Assembly: GCA_009844405.1 (NCBI GenBank)
Contig: VYBO01000060.1
Span: 1-53,957 of the forward strand
DNA from: Acidimicrobiaceae bacterium
Lineage (GTDB): Bacteria; Actinomycetota; Acidimicrobiia; Acidimicrobiales; Aldehydirespiratoraceae
Direction: 5' to 3'
DNA length: 53,957 nt
Shown: positions 26,025-50,836 of the stretch, one piece after another
Position numbering within the stretch: position 1 is the stretch's first letter
Layout: each line of letters begins with the position of its first letter
Notes under the pieces: generated by a model
The model's database searches: none
The model's input: the letters and a program-made list of their open reading frames with translations, nothing else
What the model was told of the DNA's origin: nothing
Position numbers and translations under genes: made by a program

Positions 26025-27176
26025 ATGAGAAGCCGAGTTTGTGCAGCCCTTCTGCTGGCCGGTGCCCTTGTGGCGACCGCCTGTGGAAGCGACGACAACG
26101 GCGGTGCTGCCGCTCCGGAGCCTGCACCGGCCGAGGCGCCGGCAACCACCGCCGCGCCCGAACCCGAACCCACCGAGGCACCAGCCACCACCGCCGCGGA
26201 GCCCGAACCGACCGAGGCGCCGGCAACCACCGCCGCGCCCGAACCCGAACCGGCCGAGGCGCCGACTGTCGCCCTCGTGGTGAACCAGAGCGCGGGCGAC
26301 CTCGGGCCCATCGACGACCTCGTGCGGGGCCTCGAGAGGGTGGAGGCCGACTACGGCGCCGACACCACCTTCATTGAGGCGACCGATCCGTCGACCTTCG
26401 AGACCACTCTCCGCAACCTGGCCAACCAGGGCACCGACATCATCGCGGTGACCTTCCCGCCCATGCAGGATGCCGTCGTCGCCGTGGCACCGGACTTCCC
26501 CGACGCCCGCTTCATCCACGTCTTCGGCTTCGAGGGAGGCCTCGACAACCTCGTCTCTATCGGATTCGACTACTACAAGGGCACCTACCTGGCCGGTATT
26601 CTTGCGGGCGCGCTGAACACCACCGGCAAGGTGGGATTCGTGGGCGGGGTGTCCATCCCGCCGCTCAACGCCGACTACAACGCCTTCGTGGCCGGGAGTC
26701 AAGAGCAGGATCCCGGCATCACCGGAGAAGCCGCCTTCGCTGACTCCTTCGAGGATCCGGCCAAGGGCCGGGAACTCGGGGCCGCGCTCTACGACGGCGG
26801 AGTGGACATCATCATGACCGACGCCGCGGCGACCGACCTCGGCGTCATCCAGGCCGCGGAGGAGAAGGGCGGCTACGTGATCGGCGGGTCGGTGAATTAC
26901 TTCGACAGCCCGGCCGTGATCGGAAGTGTCCTGCTGTACTGGGCGGAAGTGCTCCACACCCAGGTCGGGCACGCCCTGAGCGACGACTACACGCCCGGCT
27001 ACGTCGGCGCGGGCGTGGCCGAGGGCGGAGTGGACCTGGTCGTCAACCCCGACTTCCTCGCCAACGGCCCCGCGGAGATGGTCGAGATCATCAACGCCAC
27101 GCTCGACGAGATCGACGACGCTCGCTCCCAGATCAAGGACGGGTCTCTCGAGGTTCCCTTCGATCCCGAACTCTGA
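26025..27176 (+). CDS. BMP family ABC transporter substrate-binding lipoprotein
   Basis: Lipobox LVATACGSDD; linker APATTAAPEPEPTEAPATTAAEPEPTEAPATTAAPEPEPAEAP; BMP domain TVALVVNQSAGDLGPIDDLVRGLERVEADYGAD...GKVGFVGGVSIPPLNADYNAFVAGSQEQDPGI. Confidence 0.88.
   Translation: MRSRVCAALLLAGALVATACGSDDNGGAAAPEPAPAEAPATTAAPEPEPTEAPATTAAEPEPTEAPATTAAPEPEPAEAPTVALVVNQSAGDLGPIDDLVRGLERVEADYGADTTFIEATDPSTFETTLRNLANQGTDIIAVTFPPMQDAVVAVAPDFPDARFIHVFGFEGGLDNLVSIGFDYYKGTYLAGILAGALNTTGKVGFVGGVSIPPLNADYNAFVAGSQEQDPGITGEAAFADSFEDPAKGRELGAALYDGGVDIIMTDAAATDLGVIQAAEEKGGYVIGGSVNYFDSPAVIGSVLLYWAEVLHTQVGHALSDDYTPGYVGAGVAEGGVDLVVNPDFLANGPAEMVEIINATLDEIDDARSQIKDGSLEVPFDPEL
26129..26264 (+). repeat. In-frame ~39-42 bp tandem repeats encoding Ala/Pro/Glu/Thr-rich linker
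   Basis: About three repeats of gaggcgccggcaaccaccgccgcgcccgaacccgaac-like units. Confidence 0.8.
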
Positions 27177-47103: not shown

Positions 47104-47772
47104 CTACGAGCCGGGTGACCCCCAGGCTTCCAACAACTCGGCTGATGTGACCACCGTGGCAACCATCGCCAGAGGGTGCTCGATCACGGCTTCCTCATAC
47201 TCGGCGGGGACGCCGGCCACGGCGTCGCGCCCCAGCACCACCTGGTAGCCGAGATCGACGGCGCTGAGGCACAGGCCCATGATTCCCACATTCACCGATA
47301 CGCCGGTGGCCACCACCGTGGTCACGCCCAGGTTGCGCAGGGTCTGATCGAGGGAGGTGGCCGTGAAGGGCGTCAGGCCGTGGCCGCGCGCCGCGATCAG
47401 GTCCCGGCGGTCATCCCCGAGCTCGGGCACGAGTCGCGCCCCGTCGCTTCCGGCAAGGGTCGGAGCGATCCCCTGCTCCCGACGCAGCTTGTCGGCCAAC
47501 CCCAGGATCCGGCAGTTGACCGCGGTGCCCGCCCCGTCGGAACGGGTGTGCACGACGCAGTGGACGACGGGTGCCCCCACACCTCGGGCCGCGTCGCACA
47601 CCGCAGCGGCGGCGCGCACCGTCCCGGCGGTCGACACCCGCTCGACGAGGGCCTTCATCATGGCGTCCGGGCCCACGACACCCCTCTGCAGCTCCATGGT
47701 CAGCACCGCAGTCGAGGACGGATCGACCAGCGCCGCCAGCCCCTCCGGCCCCCGCCCGCATGCCGCCGTCAT
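47104..47772 (-). CDS. Cysteine hydrolase / isochorismatase family protein
   Basis: TAVLTMELQRGVVGPDAMMKALVERVS...APVVHCVVHTRSDG...LDQTLRNLGVTTVVATGVSVNVGIMGLCLSAVDLGYQVVLGRDAVAG. Confidence 0.88.
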   Translation of the reverse strand: MTAACGRGPEGLAALVDPSSTAVLTMELQRGVVGPDAMMKALVERVSTAGTVRAAAAVCDAARGVGAPVVHCVVHTRSDGAGTAVNCRILGLADKLRREQGIAPTLAGSDGARLVPELGDDRRDLIAARGHGLTPFTATSLDQTLRNLGVTTVVATGVSVNVGIMGLCLSAVDLGYQVVLGRDAVAGVPAEYEEAVIEHPLAMVATVVTSAELLEAWGSPGS

Positions 47773-47776
47773 CGGG

Positions 47777-47861
47777 TCACCGTCGTCATGCGATCACCGT
47801 CGTCATTGGGTCACCGTCGTCATGCGATCACCGTCGTCATTGGGTCACCGTCGTCATGCGA
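47777..47861 (-). repeat. 17-bp tandem repeat, five full copies, forming start/stop-coupled mini-ORFs upstream of the hydrolase
   Basis: TCACCGTCGTCAT(GCGA/TGGG) alternating; on the minus strand ATGs at 47857, 47840, 47823, 47806, 47789, each ORF six codons ending in TGA within the next ATGA, the last overlapping CDS ATG 47772. Confidence 0.92.
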
Positions 47862-47933
47862 TCAAGTGTGGCACGCCCCGAACACGTATTGTGCGCGGTG
47901 ATGCGCGGTCCAGGCACCATCCGGTAGGCGCCG

Positions 47934-50836
<2,903 letters not shown>

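Follow-up and report, generated by a model that had tools for sequence, protein, structure and literature searches.

The 17-bp tandem repeat in front of an isochorismatase-family gene in the window, the 53,957-nt stretch of Acidimicrobiaceae DNA analysed here, is best explained as a tandem-duplicated leaderless start that acts as a serial termination–reinitiation relay filtered by reading frame, a reading to which we assign a probability of roughly 0.7. In this model, RNA polymerase would initiate with the A of the first ATG (47857) or with an adjacent nucleotide, and a ribosome would begin at this ATG without a Shine–Dalgarno sequence, synthesize a peptide of six residues and terminate at TGA. 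The same ribosome would re-initiate at the overlapping ATG, and after five repeats the last step would start the enzyme. Since 17 equals 2 mod 3, each duplication leaves the chain intact, so that the copy number can drift (0, 1, 4 and 5 units within the genus) with limited harm. Most likely, the array in the window is tolerated and is not a dedicated regulator, and its effect on the enzyme yield is probably moderate.

The array is located at 47763–47864 on the minus strand. Analysis with TRF gave a period of 17 bp with 5.6 copies, and a period of 34 bp scored better (3.0 copies, 97% matches, 47763–47864). The preferred 34-bp unit, TGATCGC ATGACGACGG TGACCCA ATGACGACGG, is present in three copies, corresponding to six 17-bp half-units, and also includes the TGATCGC located 5′ of the first ATG. 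Read from 47857 to 47773 on the minus strand, the five 17-bp units are ATGACGACGGTGACCCA, ATGACGACGGTGATCGC, ATGACGACGGTGACCCA, ATGACGACGGTGATCGC and ATGACGACGGTGACCCG, followed by the CDS (ATGACGGCGGCATGC), with few substitutions between the units. Five minus-strand mini-ORFs are formed: mini-ORF 1 (MTTVTQ, 47837–47857, ATGACGACGGTGACCCAATGA), of which the ATG is the homologue of the putatively leaderless CDS start in relatives with 0 units, mini-ORF 2 (MTTVIA, 47820–47840), which starts within the stop of mini-ORF 1, mini-ORF 3 (MTTVTQ, 47803–47823), mini-ORF 4 (MTTVIA, 47786–47806) and mini-ORF 5 (MTTVTR, 47769–47789). The five peptides listed in the earlier note are exact, and, as also stated there, every mini-ORF TGA lies within the next ATGA, with the fifth TGA overlapping the ATG of the CDS at 47772.

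The CDS (47104–47772, minus strand) encodes a hydrolase of 222 aa, and the family assignment made in the earlier note was confirmed by a match of the product to PF00857 (Isochorismatase, E 5e-26). Upstream of 47772, the CDS frame contains only seven open codons (TCG CAT GAC GAC GGT GAC CCG), none of which is a start. Because this frame offers no start codon upstream within the repeat, 47772 is the only start that gives the full Isochorismatase domain. A divergent gene for an NAD-dependent epimerase/dehydratase occupies 47934–48908 on the plus strand, indicating that the array represents the 5′ end of a transcript and not an operon junction. When the ribosome chain was simulated from the first ATG, it arrived at 47772, and entry in any of the three frames ended on a rung and was then led to 47772. 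Judged by this architecture, the unbroken re-initiation chain proposed up to the annotated start would hold. The 17-bp unit has five exact matches in the whole genome, all at the array, and four RTGA in a 17-bp register are expected by chance at most about 0.01 times per genome, as estimated from base frequencies. The assembly behind the window is a draft of many contigs and the relatives are metagenome-assembled, so that mis-assembly could have affected the array copy number. Elsewhere in the window, a 42-bp tandem repeat of 3.4 copies (26126–26264) would be Pro/Ala/Thr-rich if translated.

Upstream of the array, TGCCACACT (47865–47873, minus strand), located 7 nt before the ATG of mini-ORF 1, is probably the extended −10 element of a leaderless promoter. 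This element is identical in 12/12 genus members and is always followed by the first start codon after 6–7 nt, even though the other upstream DNA differs in three of them (G015, G002 and G001). The CACACT of the window, a moderate match to TANNNT, lies at a distance of 7 nt from the first rung, compared with 92 nt from the CDS. Among candidate starts in 317 kb of the window's genome, TANNNT was enriched at 6–9 nt before the start, with a peak at 7 nt (1.8% vs 0.0%), and Shine–Dalgarno motifs barely exceeded background (5.1% vs 3.1%). Exact TGCNACACT before RTG gave 4 matches in the window's genome and 5 in the reversed control, indicating that the motif in its exact form does not serve as a promoter genome-wide. 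Taken together, the transcript of the isochorismatase-family gene is predicted to be leaderless and to start at the first mini-ORF.

The origin of the array was analysed by comparison within the genus, in which the orthologue is present in 12 of 16 members, the species of the window included. The leader contains 0 units in seven species, one unit in two, four units in one (G004) and five units in the window. In the 0-unit relatives, the arrangement is TGCCACACT-TGATCGC-ATGACGACGGCATC, in which the ATG located 6–7 nt past TGCCACACT is the CDS start itself. In the two species with one unit, ATGACGACGGTGACCGA is inserted, forming a mini-ORF for MTTVTE. The four 17-bp units of G004 start with ATG, GTG, GTG and GTG, all of which are coupled, and the last leads to ATG. 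In G002, a diverged chain of two ORFs (MAHGCGLRRR, followed by one of three codons) leads to an ATG that is in frame with the CDS, and this species also carries an in-frame ATG seven bases past the first ATG. The unit counts of 0, 1, 4 and 5 and the shared TGCCACACT indicate that the array arose by duplication, and the retention of TGCCACACT before the first start codon in every member indicates that it was the putative leaderless start that was duplicated. As read from these leaders, it was TGATCGC-ATGACGACGG that was duplicated in tandem, followed by a further 34-bp amplification in the species of the window. The suggestion of the earlier note that the repeat is an expansion of the gene's own start is thus borne out by the 0-unit and 1-unit relatives. 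Comparison of repeat number and ATGA phase between the relatives showed that the copy number varies, and no phase-breaking unit lengths were found, the unit being 17 bp in all arrays of the genus. In the tree of the 12 orthologues, G004 is placed outside a well-supported clade that contains the window together with 0-unit and 1-unit species, and this tree fits both independent gains of the G004 and window arrays and one gain followed by losses.

A unit that contains ATGA and is 2 mod 3 in length produces a ladder automatically, so that the pattern at a single locus is by itself little informative, and its significance lies in a phase bias at the population level. We searched genomes of the class for RTGA arrays with units of 17 bp (396 genomes) and, as control lengths, of 14, 16, 18 and 20 bp (228 each) and 13 and 15 bp (about 203 each; overall range 199–396), with at most 30 loci examined per search. 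Of the 396 genomes, 24 contained four RTGA at a 17-bp register, and the end of most of these arrays coincides exactly with the start of a long, co-oriented gene. The last RTG was the start of a Pfam-supported gene in 17 of 24 arrays for the 17-bp unit (this count includes the window array), in 11 of 30 loci examined for 14 bp and in 1 of 5 arrays for 20 bp. The corresponding number was 0 of 15 arrays for 16 bp, 0 of 4 arrays for 13 bp, and 0 of 30 loci examined for both 15 and 18 bp. Grouped by unit length, Pfam-supported starts numbered 29/59 for 2 mod 3, 0/19 for 1 mod 3 (Fisher p = 3e-5 against 2 mod 3) and 0/60 for 0 mod 3 (p = 1e-11). In two length-agnostic scans of 1.4 and 1.7 Mb, all start-located repeats had units of 14 or 17 bp, none was 1 mod 3, and the 0 mod 3 matches were located inside long open frames.

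Most matches at 18 and 15 bp were rejected as start arrays, being low-complexity coding repeats or spurious frames, and an 18-bp match in hisF and some 15-bp matches were excluded because their in-frame RTGA fell by coincidence within ordinary coding sequence. Plausible in-frame start expansions numbered only two, both with 15-bp units and without a Pfam match (L255, MTGPE repeats; L271, MTRQP repeats). These look like N-terminal extensions rather than ladders, implying that in-frame duplications exist but are rarer. After a 2 mod 3 duplication, the added ORF stops within the former start codon, so that the chain survives any copy number. In contrast, a first duplication of 1 mod 3 puts ribosomes into the gene out of frame, and one of 0 mod 3 extends the protein. 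The absence of 1 mod 3 arrays at gene starts suggests that the upstream start codons are in use, and purifying selection would be the cause of the bias. The excess of 2 mod 3 over 0 mod 3 exceeds what frame safety accounts for, leaving room for a benefit of ladders or for a cost of changed N-termini. Outside the class, 14-bp arrays are rare in the phylum, with two convincing cases in 182 genomes, in front of a HAD gene (L295) and purD (L297). The 16-bp search also yielded two 8-bp RTGA arrays, again 2 mod 3 (ATGAGCGA at L170, G263:C1:141967, and ATGACCCA at L171, G239:C55:23574). Two genomes of one genus (G244 and G210) each carry several separate 14-bp ladders, and ladder formation may be especially active in this genus.

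At other loci, up to seven coupled mini-ORFs are chained. In about twenty cases, a long upstream open frame terminates at the TGA of the first rung; these operon-junction ladders include those of gatB, asd, a pyrE-like gene and the genes for APS kinase, clpS and 3-hydroxyacyl-CoA dehydrogenase. Intergenic arrays include those of proB, truB, ftsI and the window. The target genes (FtsI, GatB, GreA, ClpS, RNase PH, TruB, Asd and others) are functionally unrelated. A diverged array in front of an aminotransferase gene (MTEIAP/VTGTAP/MSGPTP) has kept its rungs, which the search itself demanded. At L119 (G354:C51), a 17-bp array runs on through two dissimilar coupled ORFs (MWTDR and MKKDGR), spaced 14 and 17 bp, and this chain leads into a gene beginning MTQRVVLAYSGGLDTS, which we take to be argininosuccinate-synthase-like. 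The same penicillin-binding-protein gene carries ladders of three and five units with different sequences in two species of one genus (L126, G062:C1:1590369-1590423; L127, G230:C144:296-384). Four loci (L046, L049, L050 and L077) belong to records titled Bifidobacterium breve MAG that contain close relatives of the Acidimicrobiia protein of the window, and these titles may be mislabelled.

We weighed these observations against other explanations. Adaptive tuning, in which the copy number of the ladder sets the enzyme yield through ribosomes lost at each hop or gathered by several starts, with slippage as a source of reversible variation, is consistent with the range of 0–5 copies among close species, with the similar arrays that precede many genes, with the preference for 2 mod 3 over the equally frame-safe 0 mod 3, and with the finding in the window that, with at least three units, ribosomes in each of the three frames finish on a rung and from there would reach the CDS. 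The lack of a common function among the target genes and the presence of a single such array, among the unit lengths searched, in the genome of the window both speak against it, and we regard tuning as rather unlikely. Somewhat less probable still is a neutral repeat in a leader that is not translated or not even transcribed, with the actual transcript starting downstream of the array. Tandem repeats are common, in-frame expansions also occur, and a 17-bp unit with ATGA is by itself enough to produce the ladder. However, if the upstream starts were unused, 1 mod 3 units should be as common at gene starts as 2 mod 3, whereas none of 19 was found at Pfam-supported starts, and the conserved putative promoter precedes the first ATG and not the ATG of the CDS.

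The earlier note also considered a translational-coupling or attenuation leader, and the two parts fared differently: the coupled architecture is present, and attenuation agrees poorly with the weak RNA structure, the CDS-derived peptides and the unrelated genes behind such arrays elsewhere. With its short ORFs opening a putatively leaderless transcript, an attenuator with threonine/valine-rich peptides that sense an amino acid would resemble the cysteine-rich uORFs proposed in mycobacteria (PMC4633059). We looked for a leader peptide combined with alternative hairpins or a terminator, and rejected an amino-acid attenuator at the window, where the RNA of the leader shows less structure than shuffled sequences (z = +2.3), with no stable structure beyond the shuffles. 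In addition, the start of the CDS (ATGACGACGGC) is the source of the mini-ORF codons, no link between the enzyme family and threonine is evident, the 0-unit relatives have no leader at all, and an identical architecture precedes many unrelated genes, making attenuation very improbable. Similarly remote is an iterated operator, in which a regulator of the divergent genes would bind the 17-bp direct repeats. The position of the array between divergent genes would suit an operator, but the unit is confined to this locus in the genome, most relatives carry none or one copy, and most other ladders are located at operon junctions. The serial relay thus remains our preferred reading.

Termination–reinitiation at ATGA overlaps has been established experimentally (PMC6728339). 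Such gene overlaps share with the window the stop/start tetramer and the presumed behaviour of the ribosome (PMC6728339, PMC10666635), but represent one hop between two genes, whereas the window contains several serial hops through six-codon ORFs. A long upstream gene overlapping the downstream start is absent from the window, where the upstream gene is divergent, and is present at many other ladders. In mycobacteria, RTGA-coupled leaderless small ORFs are over-represented, and their coupling is conserved more than their sequence (Shell et al. 2015, PMC4633059). As in the window, the small ORF is located at a predicted leaderless 5′ end and its TGA overlaps the RTG with which the main gene begins; the last mini-ORF of the window likewise ends inside the RTGA that starts the CDS. 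The mycobacterial small ORFs are single, whereas the chains in this genus consist of one to five units, and those elsewhere of up to seven, copied from the gene's own start.

MIRUs insert at start codons and carry an ORF of their own coupled at −4 spacing, probably limiting harm (PMC12548453), and the MIRU repeat of senX3-regX3 is 77 bp (PMC9392950), which is 2 mod 3 like the 17 bp of the window. MIRUs and the window array have in common tandem start-codon units with variable copy number and ORFs coupled by a −4 nt overlap. MIRUs form a dispersed, apparently mobile family with long units, whereas the ladders described here have units of 14–20 bp and are locally made. Homologous units dispersed through the genome were not found for the window, of which the exact unit occurs at the array only. 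Set apart by this genome-unique unit, the array is not a MIRU but would work like one. The claim that no leader of this form had been described was therefore too strong, given the single RTGA-coupled leaderless small ORFs and the MIRU insertions of mycobacteria (PMC4633059, PMC12548453). The relay differs from both in that it arises where the start of each gene has itself been duplicated locally, and we found no description of serial ladders of tandem coupled mini-ORFs in the open-access literature.

The presence of gatB, ftsI, asd, truB and rph behind at least three serial coupled micro-ORFs indicates that consecutive ATGA hops seem workable for important proteins in bacteria that make little use of Shine–Dalgarno sequences. 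The ladders provide ready-made constructs for determining the efficiency of re-initiation per hop, which work on coupling has yet to settle, and a unit length of 2 mod 3 offers a simple rule for locating such arrays in other genomes. More speculatively, and with a low probability in our estimate, Acidimicrobiia might repeatedly build phase-restricted RTGA micro-ORF ladders that gather ribosomes from any frame, with a hypermutable copy number that would serve as a heritable translational rheostat.
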